The translations under genes and the position numbers were made by a program. Positions 5,974 through 33,734 of a stretch of 33,734 bases of DNA are shown here, in pieces. The notes under the pieces were generated by a model, which was not told where the DNA came from, searched no databases, and was given only the letters and a program-made list of their open reading frames with translations. The stretch's first letter is position 1. The number at the start of each line of letters is the position of its first letter. The stretch comes from Smithellaceae bacterium (GTDB lineage: Bacteria > Desulfobacterota > Syntrophia > Syntrophales > Smithellaceae): assembly GCA_030690945.1 (NCBI GenBank), contig JAUYFM010000013.1:1-33734 (forward strand), in the 5' to 3' direction.

Positions 5974-7455
5974 CTATTCACCCCAATCGCTCTTTCCCTT
6001 GCAGCGATCCAGATTCTTATCCATAAGCGGAAGTATATGAGGTGCTGGAATGTTGTATGCAGGGCCTGCAGCGGAGCGCTGCGTAGACCAGTGATACGGC
6101 GGGATAGAGAATGAAACCTTTTGCTCATCCGGCGCCACAAACTCCTTGACGGTCAAATTCTGGATGGCCTTGTGGTCGCAAGCGCGCATCTTGAGTACCC
6201 TTCCATTTGCGAACCGGTAGGTGTCTCCTTCCCAGATTTTGATGATCTTTTCCGGATCGGTACTCCGAGCACGCTCGATTACGCTGAACAGCCAATAAGG
6301 CCCGAGGGCGAAGCCACCAAGAAACTCGTTTAAGTGTTCGTATGTTGCACTGTTGAAGGGCGGGGTTTTCCATTTTTTCCATTGATCATTCCATGACTTG
6401 TAGAACTTGTCGGATCCGGGGTGTTTAAAAAACGGGGCGACATCATAATAACAGATATGAACAAGGCCTTTGGTTCCTTCCACGCCAACGTCGTTCAATT
6501 CATTGGCTCCATTCATGTAAAGGTTGGCAAACGGAATGTTCATGTTCATCTGCCGCGCCTGTTTAAGAAGATTCCCCGAATCAGGTAACCAATCTCCTGT
6601 CCATACTACTTCAGCTCCGGATGCCTTAATCTTTTCAAGGTAAGGAGCAAAATCCGTCAGGAACAGTTTGTGATAGTCCTCACCAACGAGCTGTGCCTCA
6701 GGATAGAATTCCTTGAGTCCTTTTTTGAAACCACTCGCAATGTCGCGTCCAAAGGAATAGTCTTGGCAAAGAATAAAAAACTTCTTCTCTTTTTTTCGAA
6801 TCTGACCATAGTAATAAGCCATACCACGACCGATTTGTTCGGTAGAAGCCAATGTCATAAACGAATAACGCCCGAAATTTTCTGCAGACATCATTTCATC
6901 TCCAGGGGACGCTGTATTCGCAACAATGACCTTGTACTTATTACCCACTTCACTGATAACCTTCATCAGGTGGGCTCCGGAGGTTCCCATTAAGACATGG
7001 ACTTTATCCTGGAGAACCGCACGCTCAGCGACCTTCTTACAGACATCCATCTTCGACTGGTGGTCGTACTTAATCAACTCGATCAGCTTCTTTTTGCCAT
7101 CTACCCAGATACCGCCGCGTTTGTTAATATCATGGACGGCAAACATGACCGGCATGAAAGTGAGCTCGCCTACGCTAGCAGCTGGACCGGAAAAGCTGTT
7201 GATGAAGGCGATCTTGATGGTATCACCTTTGGGGCTGACCCAAGTGGCGGGATCAAAGCCCGACATGTCCGACATTTTCTTGATGTCAAAAGTATCGTTA
7301 ATTTTTCCTGCCCAAGCGTTTTCCGAATCGGCCTTCACTCCTTTGGCCTTTTTCTCCGCTTTGGCCGCCACCGTCACCGACGGACTCAAAACCGACGCCA
7401 GCACAAAAGACAAAATACAGGCGACCATTAAAATACCCCTACTCATTCTTTTCAT
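5974..7455 (-). CDS. ABC transporter substrate-binding protein (LivJ/Peripla_BP_6 type), ended by an in-frame TAG
   Basis: A 493-residue periplasmic binding protein. Residues 1-31 are a signal peptide (basic MKRMSR, hydrophobic core, cleavage near VAA-KAE). The type I periplasmic fold begins near residue 83 (IKIAFINSFSGPAASVG), as in branched-chain amino acid, amide and carboxylate binding proteins. GAAGGAGG precedes the ATG. After SDWGE the frame meets TAG at 5974-5976 and then stays open for 21 codons, ending GHWWVKVEKAKTFDEP before TAA at 5908-5910. That tail reads like the natural C-terminus, so the TAG is a recent nonsense change or a recoded codon. No permease or ATPase gene lies in the window. 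It sits between the oxidoreductase and CoA-transferase genes on one strand, possibly in one transcript. Confidence 0.88.
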   Translation of the reverse strand: MKRMSRGILMVACILSFVLASVLSPSVTVAAKAEKKAKGVKADSENAWAGKINDTFDIKKMSDMSGFDPATWVSPKGDTIKIAFINSFSGPAASVGELTFMPVMFAVHDINKRGGIWVDGKKKLIELIKYDHQSKMDVCKKVAERAVLQDKVHVLMGTSGAHLMKVISEVGNKYKVIVANTASPGDEMMSAENFGRYSFMTLASTEQIGRGMAYYYGQIRKKEKKFFILCQDYSFGRDIASGFKKGLKEFYPEAQLVGEDYHKLFLTDFAPYLEKIKASGAEVVWTGDWLPDSGNLLKQARQMNMNIPFANLYMNGANELNDVGVEGTKGLVHICYYDVAPFFKHPGSDKFYKSWNDQWKKWKTPPFNSATYEHLNEFLGGFALGPYWLFSVIERARSTDPEKIIKIWEGDTYRFANGRVLKMRACDHKAIQNLTVKEFVAPDEQKVSFSIPPYHWSTQRSAAGPAYNIPAPHILPLMDKNLDRCKGKSDWGE

Positions 7456-19054: not shown

Positions 19055-19084
19055 TAAATAAATAAATGTCATAAGCGAGCTGTG

Positions 19085-19924
19085 ATGAAACTGGGGGCTT
19101 TTTTCCGCAACCATCCTGTTTTTACCGTCGAAGACTTTGCCGGTTTTCTGTCTTCCGATGGAACGCATAATCTGAGAACACAGGAATCTCTTCTTGCCTA
19201 CCACGTGAAAGCAGGAAATATCGTCCGGGTCCGCCGCGGTCTCTATGCATCGTTGCCCCCGGGGGCGTCCGCGGAAACCTATCCGGTCGATCCATATCTT
19301 CTTGCCTCCAAAATGGCAAAGGACGCCGTACTGGCCTACCATACGGCCCTGGAGTTTCACGGCAAGGCCTATTCTGTGTATGAGCGCTTCACGTATCTCA
19401 GCAGCAAACCCATGTCCCTCGTCAACTTTCGCGCTCATCAGTTCAAAGGAGTCAGTTTACCCAAAGCCCTTATCCTAAAAAATGCGGCATCCTTCAACGT
19501 AATAAAAACGGATCGGTCGGGGATGGCAATATCTGTGACCGGTCTGGAGAGAACTTTTGTGGATGTTCTTAACCGGCCCGATCTGACGGGAAGTTGGGAA
19601 GAGATATGGCGCTCTCTGGAATCCGTTGAGTATTTCGATCTTGAAAAGGTTGCCTCATACGTTGATTTCCTCGGCAACGCCACCACGGCCGCGAAAGTCG
19701 GCTTCTTTCTCGAACAACACCGGGAATCCCTGATGGTCGATGAAACGCACTTGAAAACGTTTCGCGATCGGCGGCCGCGCCGACCGCATTATCTGGAGCG
19801 CAGCCGGCGGAAGGCGGGCCGATTTGTTGCCGCATGGAACCTTATCGTTCCCGAAGAGGTTTATGGAAGAACATGGGAGGAACCGAAGCCGTCAGACACT
19901 ACCCGCTCCTTGAATGGAAAATAA
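19085..19924 (+). CDS. AbiEi-like antitoxin / transcriptional regulator, orphan
   Basis: A protein of about 280 residues of the type IV antitoxin AbiEi superfamily. Residues 1-65 form a winged helix (FFRNHPVFTVEDFAGFLSSDG, then LLAYHVKAGNIVRVRRGLYASLP), and the remainder matches the AbiEi C-terminal region (LAYHTALEFHGKAYSVYERF, SVTGLERTFVDVLNRPDLTG). Many AbiEi proteins repress their own promoter through inverted repeats, and such a repeat is present just upstream. No toxin gene follows it directly; the next gene is a second AbiEi-type protein. It may be orphaned, may act as a regulator, or may share the AbiEii toxin downstream. The start could also be a GTG three bases upstream; the ribosome binding site is poor. 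Confidence 0.8.
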   Translation: MKLGAFFRNHPVFTVEDFAGFLSSDGTHNLRTQESLLAYHVKAGNIVRVRRGLYASLPPGASAETYPVDPYLLASKMAKDAVLAYHTALEFHGKAYSVYERFTYLSSKPMSLVNFRAHQFKGVSLPKALILKNAASFNVIKTDRSGMAISVTGLERTFVDVLNRPDLTGSWEEIWRSLESVEYFDLEKVASYVDFLGNATTAAKVGFFLEQHRESLMVDETHLKTFRDRRPRRPHYLERSRRKAGRFVAAWNLIVPEEVYGRTWEEPKPSDTTRSLNGK

Positions 19925-19941
19925 ACTCCAAGGCAAAAACC

Positions 19942-19980
19942 TTGTTTTTGCCACAAATAAGTGGTAGTATTTGTGGCAAA
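19942..19980 (+). promoter_or_regulatory. Promoter and perfect 13-bp palindromic operator of the AbiE pair
   Basis: TTTGCCACAAATA (19947-19959) and TATTTGTGGCAAA (19968-19980) are perfect inverted repeats 8 bases apart. TTGTTT (19942-19947), a 17-bp spacer and TAGTAT (19965-19970) give a promoter lying within them. This matches known negative autoregulation of AbiE operons by AbiEi. Confidence 0.75.
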
Positions 19981-19996
19981 TAAAGGGATAATCATT

Positions 19997-20605
19997 ATGG
20001 GAAAGCATAAGCAATCCATTGATACACAGGTTCTTGCTCGCATTGAGGCACATGGTATGGGCTGGGTGTTTACACCCTCCGACTTCGCAGATTTGGGTAG
20101 CCGGACAGCTGTTGCAACCGCCCTAAAACGTTATAAGGCTTGCGGGAAAGTCCGCCAGCTTGGGCGCGGTATCTATGACGTCCCGCGTCGGCATGCCAAG
20201 CTAGGTTTACTATGGCCGTCACAGGAAGCCATCGTCACAGCGGTAAGAAATCGGGATTCGGTTCGCGTACAGCCCACGGGAGCTTATGCCGCCAATCTTC
20301 TGGGTTTGTCCGAGCAGGTGCCATCGAAAATCTTTTATTTAACAGATGGTCCCGCGCGCACGATCAAAATGGGCAATACAACAATTAATTTCAAGAGAAC
20401 AACGCCACGCAACATGGCCACATCAGACCGGGTGAGCGGCCTGGTTATTCAGGCCCTGCGCTGGCTGGGTCCTAAAAACGTCAATAATAGCACGGTGAAT
20501 GTCTTAAAAAAGAAATTTGATCAAGCGTCCAAAAAGCAAATACTGGATGACATACGTCACGCGCCTGCCTGGATTGCCGATACAATGAGACGCATCGCTC
20601 AATAA
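19997..20605 (+). CDS. AbiEi-type antitoxin (DUF6088-like)
   Basis: A 202-residue protein starting at ATG 19997 after AAAGGG; a frame start at 19961 would overlap the operator and is unlikely. The N-terminal winged-helix segment (VFTPSDFADLGSRTAVATAL, then VRQLGRGIYDVPR) is typical of AbiEi-type antitoxins, followed by a domain with VQPTGAYAANLLGLSEQVP. It lies 10 bases before a nucleotidyltransferase gene of the AbiEii family, the usual antitoxin-toxin order of type IV systems. In this system type the antitoxin neutralises without a lasting complex and represses the operon. Confidence 0.87.
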   Translation: MGKHKQSIDTQVLARIEAHGMGWVFTPSDFADLGSRTAVATALKRYKACGKVRQLGRGIYDVPRRHAKLGLLWPSQEAIVTAVRNRDSVRVQPTGAYAANLLGLSEQVPSKIFYLTDGPARTIKMGNTTINFKRTTPRNMATSDRVSGLVIQALRWLGPKNVNNSTVNVLKKKFDQASKKQILDDIRHAPAWIADTMRRIAQ

Positions 20606-20615
20606 AGAGGATTTA

Positions 20616-21617
20616 ATGGACACATTTGTTAAGCTTCCGGCAGACCAGCGTCGCGAGATATGCGAACAGGGATTTGTAAAATTAAATCTTTCTGCTGCCA
20701 GCATTGAAAAAGACTTTTGGGTGTGCTGGTCACTACGGGAGCTTTTTCACCTTCCTGTATGGGGCAAACAATTAACTTTCAAAGGCGGCACATCCCTTTC
20801 AAAAGGGTGGCGATTGATTTCCCGTTTTTCGGAAGATATTGATATCGTTATTCAACGTGATTTTCTGGGTTTTGGCGATGAAGGGCTCACGAATAAAAGA
20901 CGGAAAAAATTGCTCAAGGAGTGCAGTAGGCGTATCCAGAAGGAACTGGCGCCGGCATTGGAAAAACACATGAAAGAGTCTTTACCTCCTGATGCTGCCT
21001 GGAAGCTGACACCGGCACCACTGGACGAAGACCCCGATCAGCAAACCATTCTATTTGAATATCCATCTGTATTTTCTAATGACCTTACCTATGTCAGGCC
21101 TCTTGTAAAAATTGAATTGGGTGCGCGTTCGGAAACAGAACCTGTAGAAATGCCCGTCATTCAACCCTACCTTGCCGAGGCGTTTCCCGATCTTTTTAAA
21201 AACAGCCGTTTCTCCATTCGTACGGTTGCCGCGCGCCGAACATTCTGGGAGAAAGCAATGTTGCTTCATGAAGAAACATTTCGTCCCGCGGACAAACCGC
21301 GCCGTGTAAGACTTTCCCGCCATTATTATGACCTTTGGTGTCTGATTCGGGCGGGAGTTGCACAACAGGCAATAGACGATACGGAATTGTTTGAACGAGT
21401 AGCCCGTCATCGGCAGATATTTTTCAAGCAAAGCTGGGTTGATTACAAAACACTTCAAAAAGGTAGTTTACGCATAGCACCCCGACCGCAACAGTTAAAC
21501 GAATGGCGAAGAGATTATGATGCTATGCGCAAGGAAATGTTCTTTGAAGAACCGCCGACTTTTGATGAAATCATAAAGACTGTGCGACTGTTTGAAGATG
21601 AGATCAATCGTTCATAA
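20616..21617 (+). CDS. AbiEii/AbiGii-family nucleotidyltransferase toxin
   Basis: A 333-residue nucleotidyltransferase. The catalytic motif is complete: KGGTSLSKGW (56-65) followed by RFSEDIDI (70-77), with Asp74 and Asp76 as metal ligands. EKDFWVCWSL (31-40) is a family marker. AbiEii-type toxins transfer nucleotides, in studied members to tRNA acceptor ends, and cause growth arrest on phage attack. GAGG lies before the ATG, and it is co-transcribed with the antitoxin. No mutation of catalytic residues is seen. Confidence 0.9.
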   Translation: MDTFVKLPADQRREICEQGFVKLNLSAASIEKDFWVCWSLRELFHLPVWGKQLTFKGGTSLSKGWRLISRFSEDIDIVIQRDFLGFGDEGLTNKRRKKLLKECSRRIQKELAPALEKHMKESLPPDAAWKLTPAPLDEDPDQQTILFEYPSVFSNDLTYVRPLVKIELGARSETEPVEMPVIQPYLAEAFPDLFKNSRFSIRTVAARRTFWEKAMLLHEETFRPADKPRRVRLSRHYYDLWCLIRAGVAQQAIDDTELFERVARHRQIFFKQSWVDYKTLQKGSLRIAPRPQQLNEWRRDYDAMRKEMFFEEPPTFDEIIKTVRLFEDEINRS

Positions 21618-21708
21618 CAGAGAATGGAAGGAAGATCTTTTCAACAAGCTTGCGAAGCATCAGGAAGAGAAAGCGGAGCGAAGGCATGCGGCTGGCGAAT
21701 CTAAATAA
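21598..21708 (+). CDS. Possible small basic protein overlapping the toxin 3' end
   Basis: A 36-codon frame (MRSIVHNREWKEDLFNKLAK...AAGESK) starts 20 bases inside the toxin gene and ends at TAA 21706-21708. It is strongly charged and helical-looking. There is no good ribosome binding site, but overlap could allow coupling. The rest of the gap to 21844 holds only a weak CAGTC-TTCA-GACTG hairpin. Confidence 0.25.
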   Translation: MRSIVHNREWKEDLFNKLAKHQEEKAERRHAAGESK

Positions 21709-21844
21709 GGTGGAATGACAATCAGTCTTCAGACTGCCTTCGGACTTCAGCCTCAGGCATTTTCCCTTGCAATGTGTTTTCAAAGTTGTAAGATGACGAG
21801 TAATTTAAAAAGTCTAATCGTGTCTACTGGAATCAGGAAAATGA

Positions 21845-24382
21845 ATGGCAAATAAAGAAGCTACAGCCAGGATCAAGATAAACAAGCTGCTCGAAGCGGC
21901 AGGCTGGCGTTTCTTTGCGGAAGGAAGCGCACCCGCCAATATCCAGCTCGAACCCAGTGTCACGCTGAAGAAGCAGGACATTGATGCCCTCGGTGATAAC
22001 TTCGAGAAGACGAGCAAGGGCTTTATTGACTTTTTACTGCTGGACGCTAAAAGCTTTCCGCTCATCGTTCTTGAGGCTAAATCAGAGGATAAAAACCCTC
22101 TCGTCGGCAAGGAGCAGGCCCGTAAATATGCCAAGTCCCAGAACTGCCGCTTCGTGATTCTCTCTAATGGCAACCTGCACTACTTTTGGGATTTGGAGCG
22201 CGGCAACCCCTACCTTATTACGTCCTTTCCTACGCCGGATTCGGTGATCGGCTACCAGCAGGTTAAGCCCAACCCGCAGCGCCTCATCGAGGACCAAGTC
22301 GGCGATAACTATATCGTACTGACCCAGCGCCCGAACTACGAATCTGTAGCTGCATGGAAGAATGAAAATGAGCGCCCCGGCTACATCCAGATCAATAAAC
22401 TACGTTTCTTGCGGCCCTATCAGTTGAAGGCCATTCACGCCTTGCAACGGGATGTCAAGGTGGGAAAAGACCGCTTCCTGTTCGAGATGGCCACCGGCAC
22501 CGGCAAGACACTCACTGCCGCCGCTGTCATCAAGCTTTTCCTGCGTTCCGGCAATGCCCGGCGCGTGCTGTTTCTGGTGGATCGCCTGGAACTGGAGGAT
22601 CAGGCCCGTAAAGCCTTCAAGGCGTTACTTTCTGCCGACTTTCAGACGGTGATCTACAAGGAAAACCGTGACGATTGGCGGCGGGCGGAAATCGTTGTCA
22701 CCACAGTGCAGTCGCTACTCTTCAACAACAAATACCAGCGGCTTTTCTCGCCAACCGATTTTGATCTGGTCATTTCCGACGAAGCCCATCGCTCCATCGG
22801 CGGTAACGCCCGCGCTGTCTTCGATTACTTCATTGGCTACAAACTCGGCCTCACCGCCACGCCGCGTGACTATTTGAGGCGGTTTAACAAAACCAATCCT
22901 TCCACACGCGATCCACGCGAAGCCGAACGCCGCTTGCTTCTAGATACCTACCGCACCTTCGGTTGCGAGAACAGCCAGCCTACATATCGTTACTCGCTGC
23001 TCGACGGCGTAAAGGAAGGCTTCCTAATCAGCCCCACAGTGGTGGATGCCCGCACCGAGATCACCACCGAATTGCTCTCCGAAGAGGGCTTTATCGTCTC
23101 GTTTACCGATGATGCTGGCGAAGACCAACAGGAGGCATTCAAGCAGCGCGAGTTCGAGAAGCGCTTCTTTGCCGACGCCACCAACCAGCTTTTCTGCAAG
23201 ACCTTTCTGGAAAACTCCCTGCGCGATCCTGTCAGCGGAGAAATCGGCAAATCGATCATCTTCGCTGTCAGCCAGAATCACGCGGCCAAGCTGGCGCAGG
23301 TCATGAACCAGATGGCCGACCGCATGTTTCCCGGCAAGTACCAGTCTGACTTTGCCGTGCAGGTTACCTCACAGATCCCCGACGCCCAGCAGTTCACCAT
23401 CAACTTCAGCAACAATAACCTGCTCGGTTCGGCAAACTTCCTGCCTGCTTACAAAACCAGCAAGGCGCGTATCTGCGTCACCGTTGGCATGATGACCACA
23501 GGCTACGATTGCACGGACATCCTCAATCTCGGTCTGTTTCGTCCGATATTCTCGCCGACTGATTTCATCCAGATCAAAGGGCGCGGCACCCGCAAGCACA
23601 ACTTTCTCGAACAACTTTTTGACGACAGTATCAAGGAAGGCGTAACACAGCCGCAGAAAAACGCCTTCAAGCTCTTCGACTTCTTTGCCAACTGCGAATA
23701 CTTCGAGGAGGACTTCAACTACGACGAAGTGCTAAAACTCCCGCCGCCCAAACGGAAAGGCGGAGGTGGTGGCAATGGTGGGCCAGTAGAAGTCGGTGGC
23801 ACTTATGAGCACATAGGCGCAGATATCCTCGCCACGATCAGGGAAGAGACCATCGGCTTAGAGGGGATGAAGATCGACCGCATGTTCTTCGAAAAATTTG
23901 AGGACACCGTGCGCGACAACGAAACCATCGCGAAAGCCATCGAGGCCGGGCAGTGGGATCGCGTTATCGATTATGTGAACCGCGAAGTCTTCGACAAGCC
24001 TGAAGAATATTACACCCTTGATAAATTGCGCAAGGCCGCTGCCGTGGATCGCCGTCTGACCCTGCGAGAAATTCTGGAGAAGATCTTTGGCCTCATCCCG
24101 CGCTTCAAGTCCAAGGACGAACTACTGGAAGAGGAGTTCGCCAAATTCGTTGCCGATACCAAACCCGAAGAGGCCAAGGCGATCCCTGCCATCAAAACAT
24201 ACTTCAAAGCCTACGTTACCAATGGCCAGGTGCGTAACATTATCGAGAGTAAGCAGTTCACCGATCTGGCAACTAACCCGGTCTTTTCCACCCGTGACTT
24301 CAAAGCAGTGCCTCAGAAATACCGCACGCTAATTCCTGAATACGTTAAGGACTATGTTTCCTTGAACCAGTTCGCTGCATAA
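21845..24382 (+). CDS. hsdR: Type I restriction enzyme HsdR (EcoEI-like)
   Basis: An 845-residue restriction and translocation subunit. The N-terminal nuclease domain has FIDFLLLD (Asp62), LIVLEAKS (Glu77 and Lys79) and QARKY (91-95), the PD-(D/E)xK and QxxxY motifs of HsdR. The SF2 translocase has Walker A ATGTGKT (216-222), DEAH (311-314), GLTATPRD and motif VI GRGTRKH. A glycine-rich linker (KRKGGGGGNGG) precedes the C-terminal domain that binds the methylase. All catalytic elements look intact. It is followed 9 bases later by the fused methylase-specificity gene. Confidence 0.94.
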   Translation: MANKEATARIKINKLLEAAGWRFFAEGSAPANIQLEPSVTLKKQDIDALGDNFEKTSKGFIDFLLLDAKSFPLIVLEAKSEDKNPLVGKEQARKYAKSQNCRFVILSNGNLHYFWDLERGNPYLITSFPTPDSVIGYQQVKPNPQRLIEDQVGDNYIVLTQRPNYESVAAWKNENERPGYIQINKLRFLRPYQLKAIHALQRDVKVGKDRFLFEMATGTGKTLTAAAVIKLFLRSGNARRVLFLVDRLELEDQARKAFKALLSADFQTVIYKENRDDWRRAEIVVTTVQSLLFNNKYQRLFSPTDFDLVISDEAHRSIGGNARAVFDYFIGYKLGLTATPRDYLRRFNKTNPSTRDPREAERRLLLDTYRTFGCENSQPTYRYSLLDGVKEGFLISPTVVDARTEITTELLSEEGFIVSFTDDAGEDQQEAFKQREFEKRFFADATNQLFCKTFLENSLRDPVSGEIGKSIIFAVSQNHAAKLAQVMNQMADRMFPGKYQSDFAVQVTSQIPDAQQFTINFSNNNLLGSANFLPAYKTSKARICVTVGMMTTGYDCTDILNLGLFRPIFSPTDFIQIKGRGTRKHNFLEQLFDDSIKEGVTQPQKNAFKLFDFFANCEYFEEDFNYDEVLKLPPPKRKGGGGGNGGPVEVGGTYEHIGADILATIREETIGLEGMKIDRMFFEKFEDTVRDNETIAKAIEAGQWDRVIDYVNREVFDKPEEYYTLDKLRKAAAVDRRLTLREILEKIFGLIPRFKSKDELLEEEFAKFVADTKPEEAKAIPAIKTYFKAYVTNGQVRNIIESKQFTDLATNPVFSTRDFKAVPQKYRTLIPEYVKDYVSLNQFAA

Positions 24383-24391
24383 AGGAGCAAA

Positions 24392-26944
24392 ATGTTAGAC
24401 ACTGACACCAAACGTCGCATCGACACCGCCCGCGATATCCTCGTGGGTAAAGTGCCCGATCCCAAAAGCCAGGTCGAGCAGATCACCATTGCCCTCATCT
24501 ACAAGTTTATGGATGACATGGATGCCGAGAGCGAAGAGCTTGGCGGCAAGCGCAAGTTTTTCGCAGACGAGTTTGCCCGCTACGGTTGGGCCAAACTCAT
24601 GCGCGCAGGTCTGGGCGGACACGAGATACTGAACCTTTACGCCGAAGCCATTACCAAAATGCCGGAGAACCCCGGCATTCCACCGCTCTTCCGCGATATC
24701 TTCAAGAACGCCTATCTGCCTTACCGCGATCCGGAAACACTAAAGATGTTCCTGAAAGTCATTGATGAGTTCAACTACGATCACTCTGAGCGCCTCGGTG
24801 ATGCCTTTGAGTATTTACTCTCCGTGCTTGGCTCCCAGGGCGATGCCGGACAGTTCCGCACCCCGCGCCACATCATTGATTTCATGGTCGAGGTGACTGA
24901 TCCGAAGAAGACCGAAACCGTGCTTGATCCCGCTTGTGGCACAGCGGGATTTCTGATCTCGTCCTATAAGCACATCCTCAAGGCCAATTCTTCTCCCTCT
25001 CCCCTCGCGGGAGAGGGCAAGGGTGAGGGGGCAACGCAACGCAACGGCGACCTTCTAACCCCCGACGAAAAGGGTCGCCTCGCGCAAAACTTCAAGGGCT
25101 ACGACATTTCGCCCGATATGGTGCGCCTAAGCTTGGTCAATCTATATCTGCACGGCTTTGCCGACCCGCACATCTATGAGTACGATACCCTTGCCAGTCA
25201 GGATCGCTGGAACGACTACGCCGATGTCATCCTCGCCAATCCGCCCTTCATGTCGCCCAAAGGGGGCATTATGCCCCACAAACGATTCTCGGTGCAATCC
25301 AAACGCAGCGAGGTGCTGTTCGTGGATTACATGGCCGAGCACCTCAAGGCCGGTGGCCGCGCTGGCATTATCGTCCCCGAAGGTATCATCTTTCAGAGCC
25401 AGACCGCCTACAAACAACTGCGTAAGATGTTGGTGGAAGAGTATCTTGTCGCTGTTGTTTCACTTCCGGCAGGAGTATTCCAGCCTTATTCCGGCGTTAA
25501 GACCTCGATTCTGATTCTCGACAAGGCGCTGGCAAAGAAGAGTGAAACCATCGCCTTTTTTAAAGTGGAGAATGACGGCTTCGGCCTCGGCGCTCAGCGC
25601 CGCGAGATTTTAAAGAACGACCTGCCGCAGACCAGCGCTGAGATCGGCGAATACCTGCGCCGCCTGCGGGCAGGGGAAGCGGTTGACGACTTTCAGCCCA
25701 CGCTTGGTCTGATCGTGGAGAAGGAGAAGATCGCGGCGAATGGAGATTACAATCTTAGTGGGGAGAGGTATCGAGAAGGCAGTCGGGCAAGCTCCGATTT
25801 CCCACTGGTAGCATTGGGGGATATTTTCGAAATCACATCCAGCAAAAGGGTGTTCGAATCTGAATGGAAGTCGGAGGGGGTTCCGTTTTATCGCGCTCGA
25901 GAAATCGTAAAACTCGCCAAGGACAGGTTTGTTGAAAATGAACTCTTCATCTCCGACGAGATGTTTGAAAATTACGCCTCAAAGTATGGGGCACCTCAAG
26001 AAGGCGACATGATGGTGACAGGTGTAGGAACTCTTGGCATCTGTTATGTGGTCCAGCGCGGAGATCGCTTCTACTTCAAAGACGGCAACATCATCTGGTT
26101 GAAAAAGAAGACCGAAAACCTCACCGATTTTGTGAGGCTCTTATTCCAGACGGATTTTGTTAAGCGCCAGATCGAGCAGACTGCAGGAGCAACAGTCGGC
26201 ACCTTCACAATAATCAACGCAAAGAAGACCAAAATACCCCTGCCGCCGCTGGAGGTGCAGAAGGAGATAGTGGCGGAGATCGAGGGCTACCAGAAAGTCA
26301 TCAACGGCGCCCGCGCTGTCCTCGACAACTACCGCCCCCACATTCCCATCCATCCTGACTGGCCGATGGTGGACTTGGGCGAAGCCTGCATTGTGAATCC
26401 TCGTAAGTCCGAGGTGACTGATCTTGAGGGTGCAACAGTCGTGTCATTCGTCCCAATGTCCGATATTGGCGAACATGAGATGTTCTTTGAACCGAAAGAA
26501 ACGAAGCGACTGGACGAGGTGACCACGAGCTACACCTACTTTAAAAATGGTGATGTTCTTCTGGCAAAGGTGACACCTTGTTTTGAGAATGGAAAAGCTG
26601 GAATTGCTCGTGGTCTTCATAATGGTATCGGTTTCGGCTCAAGTGAGTTCTATGTTCTTAGATCGAGGGACACTGTGCTCCCCGCTTGGGTATTCATGTG
26701 CGCAGCAACGCCAGCATTCCGATCGTGGGCAACACCGCAGATGACGGGAACTGGCGGATTGCAACGTGTTCCGCGAGCGGTCGTGGAGAGTTATAAAATC
26801 CCTCTCCCGCCCCTCGCCACACAGCAAGCTATCGTCGCCGAGATCGAAGCCGAGCAAGCGCTAGTCGCCGCAAACCGCGAATTGATCACCCGCTTTGAAA
26901 AGAAGATCCAGGCCACCCTCGCCCGCATCTGGGGGGAGCCATGA
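24392..26944 (+). CDS. Fused type I methyltransferase-specificity protein (HsdM-HsdS)
   Basis: An 850-residue fusion. Residues 1 to about 460 are HsdM, the adenine N6-methyltransferase: GQFRTPRHI (153-161), AdoMet motif I VLDPACGTAGF (177-187) and catalytic NPPF (283-286). Residues about 465-850 are HsdS with two target-recognition units, starting PLVALGDIFEITSSKR and WPMVDLGEACIVNPRKSE, each ending in a conserved helix (PLPPLEVQKEIVAEIE; PLPPLATQQAIVAEIE). No separate hsdS exists here, which supports a working fusion. Residues about 200-212 (SSPSPLAGEGKGEG) are encoded by an inserted palindromic repeat. It overlaps the next gene by 4 bases (ATGA). Confidence 0.93.
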   Translation: MLDTDTKRRIDTARDILVGKVPDPKSQVEQITIALIYKFMDDMDAESEELGGKRKFFADEFARYGWAKLMRAGLGGHEILNLYAEAITKMPENPGIPPLFRDIFKNAYLPYRDPETLKMFLKVIDEFNYDHSERLGDAFEYLLSVLGSQGDAGQFRTPRHIIDFMVEVTDPKKTETVLDPACGTAGFLISSYKHILKANSSPSPLAGEGKGEGATQRNGDLLTPDEKGRLAQNFKGYDISPDMVRLSLVNLYLHGFADPHIYEYDTLASQDRWNDYADVILANPPFMSPKGGIMPHKRFSVQSKRSEVLFVDYMAEHLKAGGRAGIIVPEGIIFQSQTAYKQLRKMLVEEYLVAVVSLPAGVFQPYSGVKTSILILDKALAKKSETIAFFKVENDGFGLGAQRREILKNDLPQTSAEIGEYLRRLRAGEAVDDFQPTLGLIVEKEKIAANGDYNLSGERYREGSRASSDFPLVALGDIFEITSSKRVFESEWKSEGVPFYRAREIVKLAKDRFVENELFISDEMFENYASKYGAPQEGDMMVTGVGTLGICYVVQRGDRFYFKDGNIIWLKKKTENLTDFVRLLFQTDFVKRQIEQTAGATVGTFTIINAKKTKIPLPPLEVQKEIVAEIEGYQKVINGARAVLDNYRPHIPIHPDWPMVDLGEACIVNPRKSEVTDLEGATVVSFVPMSDIGEHEMFFEPKETKRLDEVTTSYTYFKNGDVLLAKVTPCFENGKAGIARGLHNGIGFGSSEFYVLRSRDTVLPAWVFMCAATPAFRSWATPQMTGTGGLQRVPRAVVESYKIPLPPLATQQAIVAEIEAEQALVAANRELITRFEKKIQATLARIWGEP
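24991..25030 (+). repeat. Palindromic REP-like repeat inserted in frame within hsdM
   Basis: CCCTCTCCC (24995-25003) and GGGAGAGGG (25009-25017) form a perfect 9-bp stem with a 5-nt loop, followed by CAAGGGTGAGGGG. It encodes SPSPLAGEGKGEG, the peptide commonly seen where this class of dispersed bacterial palindrome has entered a coding sequence. It sits between motif I and motif IV of the methyltransferase without breaking the frame. Confidence 0.8.
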
Positions 26945-29235
26945 TCACAAAAGTCAGACGATTAAAAAGCATCGGGAAATTTTATGACTTCTCGGAAAAG
27001 GCAAACGCCCTCGACTGGCATAAGAATACTTTTGTTTTTGCCCCGAACGCCTATGGCAAAACAACACTTGTAAATGTTCTCCGCTCGCTACGCGATAATG
27101 ATCCAAAATTGATCCGTGCCCGAAAGACTTTAGGCGCTGCCGCCGAACCTGAAGCGATCATCGTGATTGACAGCACCAACCATGTTTTCACTGGAACAAG
27201 GTGGGAACGGCAATATCCAGCGATCCAGATTTTCGATGTGCCTTTCATTCATACAAACATCGTTACTCACGAAATCGGCCATGAGCACAAGAAGAATATC
27301 CATAAGATTATCATCGGCGTGGAAGGGGTCAAACTGGCCGAGGAACTGACAGCGCTAAAGACCAGTGAGAAGGCAAAGAATCAGGAGGTTACGGGGTTTG
27401 TTGAACAATTTAAGCGGGGTGGGTTCAAGTTGCTTCTGGATGCATTTCTAGCCATTCCTCCGTCAGATGAAGCCGTTGTTGATTCAAGGATTCAGAAACT
27501 GGAACAGGACATCAAGTCCAAAGGTTCCGAGACGGTTGTTCAAGGTCTCGGCTATCTTCGGCAGATGACCACACCAATATTTGATTTGTCCGCTGCGAGA
27601 ATAGTTGCATCTAAGAAGCTCACCTCCGTCCACGAGGCTGCTGAGAAACAGGTGCGTGCACACATTGACCGCAATTTTAAAGACAAGACACAGGCTATGC
27701 AGTTCATCCGGCAGGGTATTGACGTCCTGCAGGCGGATTGCCCGTTATGCGGCCAAGACCTTAAGAACGCCACTGCTCTGTTGAATGCATACCGCGAGTT
27801 ATTCGACGAAGCATTCCAAATCCACCAGCAAGGTATCGCCGCACAAGTTGAAGCCTTCGCAAAATGGAATCTCGACAACGATTTGACAGTGCTGGTTTCG
27901 CACCACAATGCGAATCTTGCAACGTTGAACAAGTGGGAACCCTATCTTAGTGCAGTCGTTTTGCCGGATGCCGCTGCTGTAGTTGAAAAGTACCGAGTCA
28001 GACTTGTCGAGTTGAAGGGAAGGGTTCAGTCCGAACTCGAAAAGAAACAGAAAGACCCTAATGCAGATGCCGACCTCTCACAATTCGATGCTTTTACCGC
28101 CAGACTTGCGGAGATGAAGACTGCGATTGAAGCATACAACACGGCAGTTACCGTCTTTACCGATAAAGCGAAGCACTACGTCGCCAATTTGCCCAAATCG
28201 GACGTTGCTTCTATCCGGGAAGCGTTGGCGAAGGAACAAAATATCAAGACCCGGTTCGCACCGGAATGGAAGAAGTGGGCAGCAGATTACCCGGTAGCCA
28301 AGAAGGGAGCCAACGATCTACTCAACCAGAAGAATGCGAAACAGAAGGAACTTGAGACTTACAGCAAGACCATTTTCGATACTTACCAGATGCGGATCAA
28401 TAAATTACTGGAGACATTAGGAACCGACTTTACCATTACAGGTTTGACCGGGAAGACAGATGAACGGGCAAATGAAAGTTACAGTGATTTCGGTTTCCTC
28501 ATTCTGGAACATCCTGTCCCACTGTCGGCGCGTCAGGATGATGTGCCTTGTTTCAGAAACACGCTCAGCGAAGGCGACAAGAGCACTCTCGCCTTTGCAT
28601 TTTTTATCGCAGCGCTGGAGAAGACCCCGGAACTCGACAAGCAAATCGTTCTTTTCGACGACCCGCTTTCCAGTCTCGACGAAACCCGGCGCGAGGCAAC
28701 GGCCCGCTTGCTATTGGCCTTGTCACCTACCGTAAATCAACTCAATGTGTTTACCCACAAGCGAGATTTTCTGTACATGCTTTGCGACAAGATGCCAGAG
28801 AACAAAGTCTTACATATCCGCTCGGATACGAAGAACGGCAGCCGACTTGAGGTATTCAATGTGGAGGAAGAACGTAAGAGCGATCATGCCCGTATGATTG
28901 AGGAAATGGAGCGCTATATTAACGAAGATTTCGGACCAACCGCCGACGTCATGCAGGGCAATCTCCGAAAGCTCTTTGAAACCGTTCTCAAAACAAAGTA
29001 TTACCGAACCCTTGCTGTGGACATCAAGTCCAATCGTGGCTTCGGAACCCTCTTGACTACCCTTTTTAACGCAGGGCTGCTTGATGAAGCATTGAAACCG
29101 CAATTGTTTGACCTTTGCTCCGTGGCAAATGGTTCACATCACGGTGAAATCGTTGATGCAACTCCAAAAAAGCTCAGGAGGGATGAACTTATCCCTTTGA
29201 TCCGCGAAGCACTTAATCTTGTTAATAAGGTCTGA
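26941..29235 (+). CDS. Zinc-hook AAA ATPase resembling the anticodon nuclease RloC
   Basis: A 764-residue SMC/Rad50-like ATPase: Walker A FAPNAYGKTT (33-42), coiled-coil arms either side of CPLCGQ (Cys267 and Cys270, a zinc hook), signature NTLSEGDKST near 541, Walker B QIVLFDDPLSSLDE near 570 and an H-loop (VFTHKRD). The C-terminal domain has RKLFE (Arg676 and Glu680) and NGSHHGE (His733/734), an order and Arg-Glu spacing like the Arg-Glu-His catalytic triad of PrrC and RloC. RloC genes are known companions of type I restriction loci, where they cleave tRNA anticodon loops when restriction is disabled. A 4-base overlap with hsdMS fits that role. Nuclease activity is inferred; an OLD-like or other effector is the alternative. 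Confidence 0.8.
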   Translation: MITKVRRLKSIGKFYDFSEKANALDWHKNTFVFAPNAYGKTTLVNVLRSLRDNDPKLIRARKTLGAAAEPEAIIVIDSTNHVFTGTRWERQYPAIQIFDVPFIHTNIVTHEIGHEHKKNIHKIIIGVEGVKLAEELTALKTSEKAKNQEVTGFVEQFKRGGFKLLLDAFLAIPPSDEAVVDSRIQKLEQDIKSKGSETVVQGLGYLRQMTTPIFDLSAARIVASKKLTSVHEAAEKQVRAHIDRNFKDKTQAMQFIRQGIDVLQADCPLCGQDLKNATALLNAYRELFDEAFQIHQQGIAAQVEAFAKWNLDNDLTVLVSHHNANLATLNKWEPYLSAVVLPDAAAVVEKYRVRLVELKGRVQSELEKKQKDPNADADLSQFDAFTARLAEMKTAIEAYNTAVTVFTDKAKHYVANLPKSDVASIREALAKEQNIKTRFAPEWKKWAADYPVAKKGANDLLNQKNAKQKELETYSKTIFDTYQMRINKLLETLGTDFTITGLTGKTDERANESYSDFGFLILEHPVPLSARQDDVPCFRNTLSEGDKSTLAFAFFIAALEKTPELDKQIVLFDDPLSSLDETRREATARLLLALSPTVNQLNVFTHKRDFLYMLCDKMPENKVLHIRSDTKNGSRLEVFNVEEERKSDHARMIEEMERYINEDFGPTADVMQGNLRKLFETVLKTKYYRTLAVDIKSNRGFGTLLTTLFNAGLLDEALKPQLFDLCSVANGSHHGEIVDATPKKLRRDELIPLIREALNLVNKV

Positions 29236-29248
29236 GGAAAAGGGACAT

Positions 29249-29980
29249 ATGGAAGAAGCCGCCGAGCTGGGCAACTACCTGCCGCTCTCCTACAAAACCC
29301 GCAGCGAGCAGGACTACATCGCTTTCCTGTGGGACGCCTTCGACACTAACTACACCTACGGTAAGTACCAGTTCGCCTTCCTCGCTTATCACATGCTCAC
29401 GATGAGTTTCGTCTACTTCAACATCTGGCAAATTAGACAGGTATGGCCGGAAGACTTTGGGAAAGGCCTCATCGGCTTCGGCAAGGACATTGAGAAGAAC
29501 CTGTTGGAAGCAACTTCACCCTTTGTCTTCAGTGCCGTGAAAGAGCGCAGCATCCTTCGCTTCCTCAAACTAATCGGCTGTGATAACGGCAAAATTGGCA
29601 CCTATGCAAAACTCGTGGACGACCGCAACGACACCGCCCACCCTAATGGCAACATCTTCTTCAGCACGCAAGACGCACTCGATGCCAAAATCAATGAGAT
29701 CATGCGCGTGGTGGACGAAATTCAGACGCACTCGAAACCTGTGATAGAACAAGCATACCGTGAGTTTCTGTTTCAAAGCCATGACCCCGAGGAGCGTGAA
29801 TATCCTGACGCCGCCGACCAGCTTCGCGAGTTGCTGGTTCACAAAAATTATCTATCTCAAAAAGACATCGAAGTCTGCCTCGCTTACGATCTTGCCGACA
29901 TCGCGGATCGGCCAGAGATCGACAGCATCCGCACGTTACACGAGACGCTGAAATCAGAATATGGATCAGACAATGATTAA
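29249..29980 (+). CDS. HEPN-like protein of the restriction locus
   Basis: A 243-residue protein from ATG 29249, preceded by AAAAGGG; a TTG frame start at 29219 would overlap the previous gene. It is helical, with aromatic-rich residues 30-62, and contains DDRNDTAHPNG (Arg126 to His131), the R-N-x3-H signature of HEPN ribonucleases. The C-terminal part (about 155-243) is charged and helical with no recognised domain. It lies 13 bases after the RloC-like gene, in the same operon as hsdR and hsdMS. HEPN proteins often serve as RNA-cleaving toxins or defence effectors; here that is inference from the motif and context. Confidence 0.65.
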   Translation: MEEAAELGNYLPLSYKTRSEQDYIAFLWDAFDTNYTYGKYQFAFLAYHMLTMSFVYFNIWQIRQVWPEDFGKGLIGFGKDIEKNLLEATSPFVFSAVKERSILRFLKLIGCDNGKIGTYAKLVDDRNDTAHPNGNIFFSTQDALDAKINEIMRVVDEIQTHSKPVIEQAYREFLFQSHDPEEREYPDAADQLRELLVHKNYLSQKDIEVCLAYDLADIADRPEIDSIRTLHETLKSEYGSDND

Positions 29981-29995
29981 TCTCAAAATAATTAA

Positions 29996-30550
29996 GGATG
30001 GTTCTATTCAGACAAAGCCCGTAAGCTTGATCCTATTGTCATGGCAGGAGTTGCCCATTATGAATTTGTCCGCATCCATCTATTTGTTGACGGCAACGGC
30101 AGGACTGCGCGCGTCATCGCTGCGTTGATTTTGCGAACTCGCGGCTTTGATACCAAGCAGTTTTTCTGCCTTGATGACTATTACGATGTGGATCGAAGCG
30201 AGTATTACAAGGCCTTAAGAACCGTCAATCCCCAGAAGCGCGACATGACTCACTGGCTTGAATATTTTGTGGAAGGCGTGGCTGTAAGCATTGACGCTGT
30301 TCGTGAACGCGTTGTTCGTTTGAGCACGGAGCGCATCAGGACGAAAAAGAAAGGCCAGATCGCCCTCACGGAAAGACAAATGCGGATTGTGGAATACATC
30401 AATAAGCACGGCAAAATGAATATCGGCGACGTGGCAACAATGTTTAAAACAAGCAGGCAGGCGGCGCTCAAGGAAATCGGCAAGCTGGTTTTGCTGGAAA
30501 TTGTCAAACGGGAAGGCCAGGCCAGAGCCAGCTATTATGTGATGCGCTAA
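29996..30550 (+). pseudogene. Fic-family AMP-transferase gene, 5'-truncated
   Basis: The intact Fic motif HLFVDGNGRTAR (residues 13-24 from ATG 30041) and flanking helices are present, followed by a C-terminal winged helix (LTERQMRIVEYINKHGKMNI, GDVATMFKTSRQ). Full-length members have some 150-200 further N-terminal residues, including the inhibitory helix; these are missing. Similarity continues upstream of the ATG as FYSDKARKLDPIV and stops at a TAA (29993-29995), only 15 bases after the HEPN-like gene, so a deletion joined the two. There is no ribosome binding site at 30041. If made, the product would lack its N-terminal inhibitory part. HLF replaces the usual HPF in the motif. Confidence 0.8.
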
Positions 30551-30552
30551 CC

Positions 30553-30590
30553 GGTTGTCGATTTGGTTGTCGTTGGGTTGTCGATTTGGT
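30553..30590 (+). repeat. Short direct repeats GGTTGTCGATTTGGT
   Basis: GGTTGTCGATTTGGT occurs at 30553-30567 and 30576-30590, with GGTTGTCG also between them. It lies just after the fic stop codon. It may be a recombination or slippage site; no function is evident. Confidence 0.6.
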
Positions 30591-30617
30591 GATCCAGGCG
30601 ATTTATCGTAAATACGA

Positions 30618-31301
30618 ATGTCAATGGTGACAATGAATATAGGAAAGAAAGATAAGAGATTGAGCGTACAAACCATCAGGCAGGCAGACAGCGATTACCC
30701 GGCGGTTTTGCAAAACCGTCTTGGCGCGAATGCGCCCGCCCGGCTGTATGCGTTGGGTGAAACTGCTATTTTACGTCGGCGTCTGCTGGGCCTGATTTGC
30801 TCGATTCAGTGTCCCGGCAGTATTGTGCTCAAAACATTCGACACCATCCGCGCCTTGCGAGATGCGGGCGTGGCGGCAGTGGGCGGTTTTCTCTCGCCAA
30901 TGGAGCAGGATTGCCTGGATATTTTGTTGCGCGGCAAGCAGCCGATCATTCTCTGCCCGGCAAGAGGGCTGGAAGGCCTGCGCCTCGGCGAAAAGGTAAG
31001 GCAGGCGGTTGATGAAGGACGTTTACTGGTTCTTTCCACATTTGCCGACGATGTCCGGCATACAACAGCCGCGCAGGCAGTCAGACGGAACAATCTGGTT
31101 GCCGCCCTTGCCGATGCGCTTCTGGTGCCTTACGCCGCCCCCAATGGCAAGAGCTGGACAACCGTCCATGCCGCGCTGAAAAGGAACCAGCCGGTGTTTA
31201 CATTCGATGTGGAAGATAACGCCGCTCTTCTCAAAGCAGGCGCACACCCTTTTGAGCTTTTATCGGTTCAACACTTAAGTCATAGAGAGGAATTATCATG
31301 A
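30618..31301 (+). CDS. DprA-like Rossmann-fold protein (diverged)
   Basis: A 227-residue relative of the DNA-processing protein DprA. Shared features are the approach segment (YPAVLQNRLGANAPARLYALG), the helix-strand order of the Rossmann domain (TFDTIRALRDAGVAAVGGFL, QPIILCPARGL, EGRLLVLSTF) and NNLVAALADALLVPYA near residue 160. The canonical GSR and GID-like motifs of DprA are replaced (LICSIQCPGS; GGFLSPMEQDCL), so it is probably not the transformation protein. ATGs at 30618, 30624 and 30633 are alternatives; none has a strong ribosome binding site. It overlaps a DUF262 gene start by 4 bases (ATGA), suggesting a two-gene unit. Confidence 0.75.
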   Translation: MSMVTMNIGKKDKRLSVQTIRQADSDYPAVLQNRLGANAPARLYALGETAILRRRLLGLICSIQCPGSIVLKTFDTIRALRDAGVAAVGGFLSPMEQDCLDILLRGKQPIILCPARGLEGLRLGEKVRQAVDEGRLLVLSTFADDVRHTTAAQAVRRNNLVAALADALLVPYAAPNGKSWTTVHAALKRNQPVFTFDVEDNAALLKAGAHPFELLSVQHLSHREELS

Positions 31302-31429
31302 CAACATTTGATTCAACCAAATCTGCACTTAGCAAGCTACTGGAACATGTTTCCGAAGGAAAAATTCTTTCGCTGGTTCAAACTTGCTGTTTGAACCAGA
31401 ATGTTTCATTTTCCTGCGTAAAACACTGA
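31298..31429 (+). pseudogene. DUF262 (GmrSD-type) gene, truncated after about 23 codons
   Basis: Starts in an ATGA overlap with the DprA-like gene, after AGAGAGGA. MTTFDSTKSALSKLLEHVSEGKI matches the opening of DUF262 proteins, which normally continue with QLPDFQRGWVW. Here the frame goes into unrelated sequence and stops at 31427-31429 after 43 residues. The start signals are intact but nearly all of the gene is gone; the break coincides with two hairpins. Confidence 0.7.
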
Positions 31430-31452
31430 TTCAATCATCATGATTGAATCAG
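31373..31452. repeat. Two adjacent perfect hairpins at the DUF262 break
   Basis: CTGGTTCAAA (31373-31382) pairs with 31390-31399 over a 7-nt loop, and CTGATTCAATC (31426-31436) pairs with 31442-31452 over a 5-nt loop. Both arms start CTG-TTCAA. They are followed by an imperfect direct repeat, CAATGAAAACTGTCTCC (31453-31469) and CAATGAATACTGTCTGC (31506-31522). The rest of 31430-31618 has no gene. Confidence 0.7.
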
Positions 31453-31618
31453 CAATGAAAACTGTCTCCACCTACAACTGCTTAAAAATGCAACTATAAA
31501 AAAAACAATGAATACTGTCTGCAATAGTGAGTCTGTTGCTAACTATCCCCGGTCCAGCTCCTTCCTCACTGTTATGCCGAGCCGTTCCAGAAGATAAGGT
31601 TTTAATATGAATTCTCTT

Positions 31619-33573: not shown

Positions 33574-33734
33574 TCAACCCGATCCGCTGTTTAGGTTGCA
33601 AGCCGTTCTTTGCATGATCACCTCCATAGCTTTGTAGTAATCCCTCTGCACTTTGATGTTGGATACCCGACAATACCGTTGCGTCGTCCTGATAGAGTTA
33701 TGCCCCAAAAGATCCTGGATCGTAGAGAGATCCG
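33574..33734 (-). CDS. Tyrosine recombinase/integrase, C-terminal part (runs off the right edge)
   Basis: The minus strand from the right edge encodes DLSTIQDLLGHNSIRTTQRY, then CRVSNIKVQRDYYKAMEVIM, ending ACNLNSGSG at TGA 33574-33576. LLGHxSIxTTxxY is the C-terminal catalytic box of phage-integrase-type recombinases, with His in LGH and the nucleophile Tyr in TQRY. The rest lies outside the window. Its presence at the end of a run of defence genes suggests the island's border or an inserted element. Confidence 0.85.
   Translation of the reverse strand, partial: DLSTIQDLLGHNSIRTTQRYCRVSNIKVQRDYYKAMEVIMQRTACNLNSGSG

Follow-up and report, generated by a model that had tools for sequence, protein, structure and literature searches.

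A DprA-like gene without the GSR motif as the probable tail gene of restriction-modification operons with exchangeable content

The DprA-like gene and its surroundings in a Smithellaceae genome

The stretch of DNA analysed (the window) spans 33,734 nucleotides of contig JAUYFM010000013.1 from a Smithellaceae bacterium (assembly GCA_030690945.1). On its forward strand, an intact ORF (30618–31301) codes for a DprA-like protein of 227 amino acids, which is recognized by the Pfam model DNA_processg_A (PF02481; E 9.9e-14, 51.5 bits vs a cut-off of 29.6) and the AlphaFold model of which displays a single Rossmann-type domain with the DprA/ShosA fold. The GSR motif, which lies in the first Rossmann loop of canonical DprA, is replaced by CSI.

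The start codon (ATG, 31298–31300) of a second forward ORF (31298–31429; 43 amino acids) shares the four bases ATGA with the stop codon (TGA, 31299–31301) of the DprA-like gene. This ORF did not match any of the Pfam (GmrSD_N, PF03235, included), PADLOC or NCBIfam models, so that its assignment to DUF262 is not confirmable by profile. Its first 25 residues produced two tblastn matches only in 7.3 Gb of plasmid sequence (52–57 % across 23 residues), their E-values (5 and 9) being weak. The matches fall exactly at the N-termini of proteins of 613–614 amino acids encoded on cyanobacterial plasmids, and both of these proteins belong to GmrSD_N/DUF262 (107.5 and 110.6 bits); the N-terminus of one of them (L175) reads MSTFDSTKTSLATLLNDIVVGKIQLPDFQRG, that of the window ORF MTTFDSTKSALSKLLEHVSEGKI. 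Because the 23 residues align to exact GmrSD_N/DUF262 N-termini, the ORF very probably begins as a real DUF262 start, judged by its sequence. The two plasmid genes immediately follow genes that carry the annotations helicase-like and phospholipase D. In the window, the likeness ends just before the QLPDFQR motif and is followed by unrelated residues and a stop codon; the remainder of the gene is lost, and the GmrSD_C domain (DUF1524), present in a relative (L006) described below, is absent from the 43 residues. A comparison of the 24-residue DUF262 start with 149 relatives returned the window itself plus one other match (E 0.785), which by eye lies inside an apparent phage tail gene. At the point where the DUF262 gene breaks off, an unstranded twin-hairpin (REP/BIME-like) repeat of about 90 bases (31364–31453) was detected, further copies of which reside elsewhere in the genome, two of about 76 % identity and one partial.

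The original prediction of a DprA relative lacking GSR, overlapping by 4 bases the start of a DUF262 gene, is hence borne out for the protein (51.5 bits with PF02481, CSI in place of GSR) and for the overlap (ATGA, 31298–31301), and very probably for the identity of the second gene. Its description of the pair as broken holds for the DUF262 gene and not for the DprA-like ORF.

Upstream on the same strand, the genes of a type I restriction-modification (R-M) system are followed by several genes occupying an exchangeable slot: an HsdR-like restriction subunit with ResIII helicase (21845–24382; PADLOC REase_I, 192.5 bits), a methyltransferase fused to a specificity domain (HsdM-HsdS, 24392–26944; N6_Mtase 163.5 bits, Methylase_S 69.7 bits), an AAA_13 ATPase (26941–29235; PADLOC PDC-S06, weak PrrC similarity), a HEPN-like protein (RiboL-PSP-HEPN, 29219–29980; PF18735 with E 8.1e-4 and 19.8 bits, a weak match under the cut-off of 28.4) and a 5'-truncated, SoFic-like Fic protein (30041–30550; PADLOC SoFic, 112.3 bits, profile positions 183–351 of 361), the stump of which ends 67 bases 5' of the DprA-like gene. 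Two AbiEi-like genes and then AbiEii were observed 5' of the type I genes (19082–21617), and a fragment resembling by eye the C-terminus of a tyrosine recombinase at the right end of the window (33574–33732). The R-M core of the window is of type I; type IIG enzymes gave no match in the window's own genome, and the PDLC03628 methyltransferase and PLD-SNF2 helicase present in related loci (L212, L220) are not found upstream of the window DprA-like gene.

Sequence, fold and distribution of the DprA-like family

Members of the DprA-like family mostly comprise about 150–230 amino acids, as called, and a single Rossmann/SLOG-type domain. None of the 66 aligned sequences, the window protein included, contains GSR; CSx is present in 61 of them, and four residues (E96, G106, R157 and N158) are invariant in all 66. 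The NCBIfam dprA equivalog is not reached by the window protein (44.9 vs 191.15 bits), and a canonical DprA (268.5 bits) is encoded on another contig of the window genome; the window protein is not the housekeeping DprA.

The AlphaFold model of the window protein, built from nine sequences, attained a pLDDT of 86.7 and a pTM of 0.85. Its similarity to DprA (3uqz; Z 22.4, 203 residues, rmsd 2.9) and to the antitoxin ShosA (8zva; Z 21.8, 202 residues, rmsd 3.1) amounts to a tie, and ShosA ranked first with Foldseek (E 1.5e-13). As the fold matches span residues 11–227, i.e. nearly the whole chain, the protein consists of one domain. Binding of ssDNA by the family is not to be assumed, since it has neither the GSR loop nor any second DprA domain. 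The PDB sequence search was headed by a designed repeat protein (7udk), which was discounted, its score arising from repeat summing.

Four samples were covered by profile searches at E 1e-30. The window's class yielded 9 positive genomes among 155 and its phylum 18 among 395; in a second phylum, 16 of 343 genomes were positive, and in a class centred on a third locus 20 of 291. Each count includes the centre genome already known to carry the gene, and the samples overlap in part (G224 and G884 yield the same locus). Scanning 84,980 genomes for a peptide pattern, an approach limited to close relatives, revealed eight loci, and a corresponding scan of viral contigs two loci with a DprA-like gene. 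The window protein was unmatched in plasmid records at 1e-5 and in phage records at 1e-3. A phage or plasmid origin of the gene was rejected on the basis of these missing record matches and of the mere two viral contigs.

Operon context, slot contents and exchange of the R-M core

Merging of 77 candidate places resulted in 71 distinct DprA-like loci; the row of L170 was removed as a copy of L022, and L009, apparently from one assembly with L022, stands outside the 71. Counts of neighbours are rough because ORFs were called mechanically across the flanks: the first upstream ORF with 100 or more amino acids points in the same direction in 60 of 66 loci, as compared with 42 of 61 for the first such ORF downstream (Fisher p 0.003). 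According to these counts, the DprA-like gene behaves mostly as an operon tail, while not always being the last gene (same-strand ORF within 100 bases downstream in 14 of 61 loci).

A PLD-SNF2 helicase and/or a type IIG methyltransferase is located upstream on the same strand in 38 of the 71 loci and type I R-M genes in four (window, L185, L192, L194), such that a helicase, IIG or type I gene precedes the DprA-like gene in 42 loci; these figures include remnants, some as short as 58–112 amino acids. Remnants in L188, L189 and L191 were missed by the L022 helicase query, which lacks the N-terminus, and were recovered by a later search. Where at least 6 kb of upstream sequence is available, an R-M partner is present in 27 of 36 loci. 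In the other nine, no helicase, IIG or type I gene was found; some of them contain AlbA_2-like, AbiE or SIR2-like genes and others no evident defence gene.

The usual order is PLD-SNF2 helicase (about 1,115–1,160 amino acids; PLD, SNF2 and Helicase_C domains), Eco57I/MmeI-type IIG methyltransferase (about 1,100 amino acids; Eco57I domain), slot and DprA-like gene, with the best PADLOC models being C3a139 (HKD+Snf2) for the helicase and PDLC03628, a type IIG enzyme, for the methyltransferase. In eight loci (L022, L057, L146, L149, L212, L216, L220, L221) the DprA-like gene overlaps the full-length IIG gene or is at most 3 bases away from it (gap -4 to 3). The BREX-related Type-2 BR system likewise combines an HKD-SNF2 helicase with an N6-methyltransferase, together with a DUF499 ATPase and DUF3780; neither a DUF499 ATPase nor a DUF3780 gene was recognized by eye upstream of the helicase in eight loci. 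With good confidence, the DprA-like gene typically closes an ATP-dependent R-M operon that contains an exchangeable slot.

The slot between the IIG and DprA-like genes holds from zero to a few exchangeable defence genes. Its contents include an AAA_15/21 ATPase with DUF3226 (L018; similar pair in L019), DarT with a macro protein (DarTG; L062), OLD-TOPRIM with UvrD (L147), presumably AlbA_2-like genes, named by resemblance (L059, L167), DUF3644 (L023), HTH with an M78 peptidase (L021), DUF6978 with DUF1828/1829 (L074), Bro-N (L160), PIN (L122) and DUF4209 with Mrr_N genes (L006). In L067/L192, DarT and macro genes likewise separate the DprA-like gene from type I genes, and AbiEii is located 5' of the DprA-like gene in L073. 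REP-associated tyrosine transposase-like genes were noticed by eye upstream of DprA-like genes in four loci (L108, L114, L115, L021).

The DprA-like gene persists as the slot contents change, sometimes even as the R-M core is replaced, by type I or, apparently, in one locus (L188) by type III. In that locus, the order is helicase scar, N6/N4 methylase, helicase-like gene, DUF1016-like gene and DprA-like gene, of which the methylase and helicase-like gene correspond by eye to a type III layout. N-terminal scars of the PLD-SNF2 helicase (67–78 residues) were found upstream of DUF1016-like genes in L188 and L189, as if everything between the scar and the persisting DprA-like gene had been replaced. 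The window fits the general plan (HsdR, HsdM-S, AAA_13, HEPN-like, Fic stump, DprA-like); behind its DprA-like gene, what is very probably a GmrSD gene was attached and later truncated.

An independent search for IIG (PDLC03628) in two phylum-level samples was positive for 7 of 247 and 8 of 250 genomes, and 6 of the 7 and 6 of the 8 (12 of 15) also possess the DprA-like gene, the overall frequencies of which are 18/395 and 16/343. Hypergeometric values for this co-occurrence are 2.5e-8 and 9.8e-8, presuming the smaller samples to be nested in the larger ones, as suggested by genome numbering. Without G534, the centre of the second sample, which had been selected because of its DprA-like gene, 5 of 7 compare with 15 of 342 (1.6e-6); the first sample without its centre gives 1.7e-8. 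Among IIG loci uncut by a contig end, 11 of 13 (G534 included) are followed by the DprA-like gene in the same orientation and at a distance of no more than 5.7 kb, the two exceptions being G061 (gene on another contig) and G629 (gene absent).

Protein distances of DprA-like and IIG partners correlate with a Mantel r of 0.815 (24 pairs, 0/5000 permutations), and with 0.774 for pairs more than 500 bases apart (n=15, 0/5000 permutations); the co-divergence may in part reflect vertical descent. On the DprA-like tree, from which five proteins shorter than 140 amino acids were excluded, the window protein belongs to a clade of five (SH-aLRT 99). The other four members are accompanied by helicase-IIG, which identifies the type I context of the window as an exchange of partners. 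Type I loci, four in all, occur at scattered positions on the tree (4 changes), and the IIG label is only modestly clustered (17 changes vs a shuffled mean of 22.3, 6 of 500 shufflings being as low).

Candidate functions and relation to known systems

The DprA-like protein could represent a regulatory subunit, the Rossmann pocket of which would bind a ligand (ssDNA or a nucleotide). In healthy cells, this subunit would restrain the helicase/nuclease arm and/or toxic cargo, and it would release or direct those effectors once invading DNA is processed. By analogy with RqlI, which restrains RqlH, and with the ShosA antitoxin, a ligand-binding regulator holding back the helicase/nuclease arm or cargo toxins appears possible, if tentative. 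As a whole, operon-tail anatomy combined with a regulatory role constitutes the best explanation, which may be taken as evenly balanced between right and wrong. DarTG, AbiE and XRE-ImmA modules bring their own antitoxin and, therefore, do not need the DprA-like protein in that capacity.

A passive role would be conceivable if the gene merely marked where a recombination slot ends on its 3' side, providing homology for cargo swaps, without any function in R-M. Such hitchhiking would agree with the exchange of slot contents, and even of the R-M core, next to a DprA-like gene that remains in place, as well as with the helicase scars upstream in L188 and L189, from which it is now separated by other genes. 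It is rendered unlikely by the four residues invariant across the alignment, by the translational overlap or near-overlap with IIG in eight loci and by the co-divergence with IIG across different cargo, which together indicate selection on the DprA-like product.

Rather improbable is a role in transfer instead of control, with the protein shielding incoming single strands of the island or passing them to RecA and thereby aiding establishment, which would also account for the position at the operon end. The DprA fold and the recombinase-like genes seen by eye near some loci (window, L216) are compatible with this role. Opposed to it are the lack of GSR throughout the alignment, the restriction of the 227 residues to one domain and the presence of a canonical DprA in the window genome; moreover, such a helper would be expected in phages and plasmids, yet no such record matched at the limits used and viral contigs with the gene number two only.

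The overlapping gene pair of the window had originally been proposed to be a possible two-gene defence unit, to be refuted if no other genome had the DprA-like gene next to DUF262; two other genomes do show this neighbourhood. A planctomycete MAG harbours an intact pair with the same ATGA overlap (L006, identical to L166), the partner of which has both DUF262 and DUF1524 domains as in GmrSD type IV enzymes (only 23 residues are retained in the window), and in addition a second copy (L004, identical to L165), in which the DUF262 gene, overlapping in the same way, is broken. In Smithella sp. SCADC (L009), an intact DUF262 gene is situated 220 bases upstream of a DprA-like remnant (6022–6300 of that locus), in which a large internal in-frame deletion leaves 92 amino acids. 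However, when 110 locus segments, in part overlapping, were scanned with a DUF262 HMM, which does not reach short remnants such as those of the window and L165, DUF262 genes were recovered in three segments only (L009, L166, L185). That of L185 belongs to a type I operon and lies 8.6 kb upstream of the DprA-like gene. The order varies (DUF262 downstream in L006, upstream in L009), the DUF262 starts of the window and L166 differ in sequence, their DprA-like proteins are not sisters on the tree and form no clade, and L166 also possesses IIG and cargo upstream. Intact DUF262 genes near the DprA-like family being rare, GmrSD is one companion among many. What stands of the proposal is the intact pair; a dedicated unit, in which the DprA-like part recognizes foreign DNA for a GmrSD-type enzyme to cut, is very improbable and was rejected, since the survey of neighbours and the HMM scan reveal the pairing as too rare for a rule and upstream R-M genes, not DUF262, as the regular partners.

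With respect to the favoured regulatory reading, several known systems offer points of comparison. Nucleotide-centric conflict systems were reportedly treated by Burroughs et al. in 2015, and a 2024 preprint by Payne et al. is said to deal with defences embedded in immune systems. With canonical DprA, the family shares PF02481 and the fold (3uqz), differing in scores below the NCBIfam cut-off, absence of GSR, the single domain and the location among defence genes.

ShosTA, PsyrTA and DprA+PRTase resemble the present loci in that a DprA-like Rossmann protein resides within a defence or toxin-antitoxin operon, and the window protein fits the PADLOC model PsyrA (83.3 bits, E 4.4e-24; model without cut-off) and more weakly ShosA. 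Unlike in ShosTA and PsyrTA, a PRTase was not detected among the ten window proteins scanned (19082 to 31426; at other loci, the scan covered selected neighbours), and the DprA-like partners are R-M genes plus variable cargo; ShosA is also longer (308 vs 227 residues in the window). For DprA+PRTase, protection from T7 and lambda is recorded in PMC9122126.

In RqlHI, a DprA homologue shares an operon with a helicase, and RqlI binds RqlH, a RecQ-like PRTase helicase, and restrains it (PMC4670107). Related operons of the present family (L212, L220), in contrast, encode a PLD-SNF2 helicase rather than RecQ-PRTase, and a RecQ-like PRTase helicase was not found among the window proteins scanned. RqlI is furthermore described as carrying a helix-turn-helix domain (PMC4670107), for which the DprA-like family has no room.

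Cargo such as DarTG, OLD/TOPRIM, HEPN and PIN inside R-M or BREX operons is known, examples being DarTG2 within type I R-M, the RptR island and BREX-related systems (PMC12255303, PMC12839542). The word 'DprA' occurs 0 times in the main texts of both papers, whereas in the present loci the slot ends with a DprA-like gene. In a paper on Acinetobacter plasmids, the legend of a BREX figure names both a dprA gene and DUF262. Among the listed papers of the open-licence literature searched, judged from titles and the beginnings of abstracts, none describes the DprA-like R-M tail arrangement.

In the literature searched, defence-related DprA homologues sit beside phosphoribosyltransferase toxins. The present family, distinct and GSR-less, is tied to R-M operons, as tested in the two phylum-level samples, and unrelated abortive-infection modules are plugged in alongside it. 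That helicase, IIG and DprA-like gene form an undescribed three-gene restriction-type system, with a cargo bay and a portable, ligand-gated safety catch for unrelated effectors, is a doubtful proposition at present. If true, the DprA-like safety catch could govern type I, IIG and perhaps type III R-M, DarTG, OLD+UvrD, AlbA_2-like and GmrSD effectors, and the DprA-like subunit would serve many bacterial defence islands as a common control element. Should the DprA-like protein indeed act as a regulatory subunit, it would provide a handle on the silencing of restriction systems with dangerous cargo, and its gene a marker with which new cargo could be located from its position.
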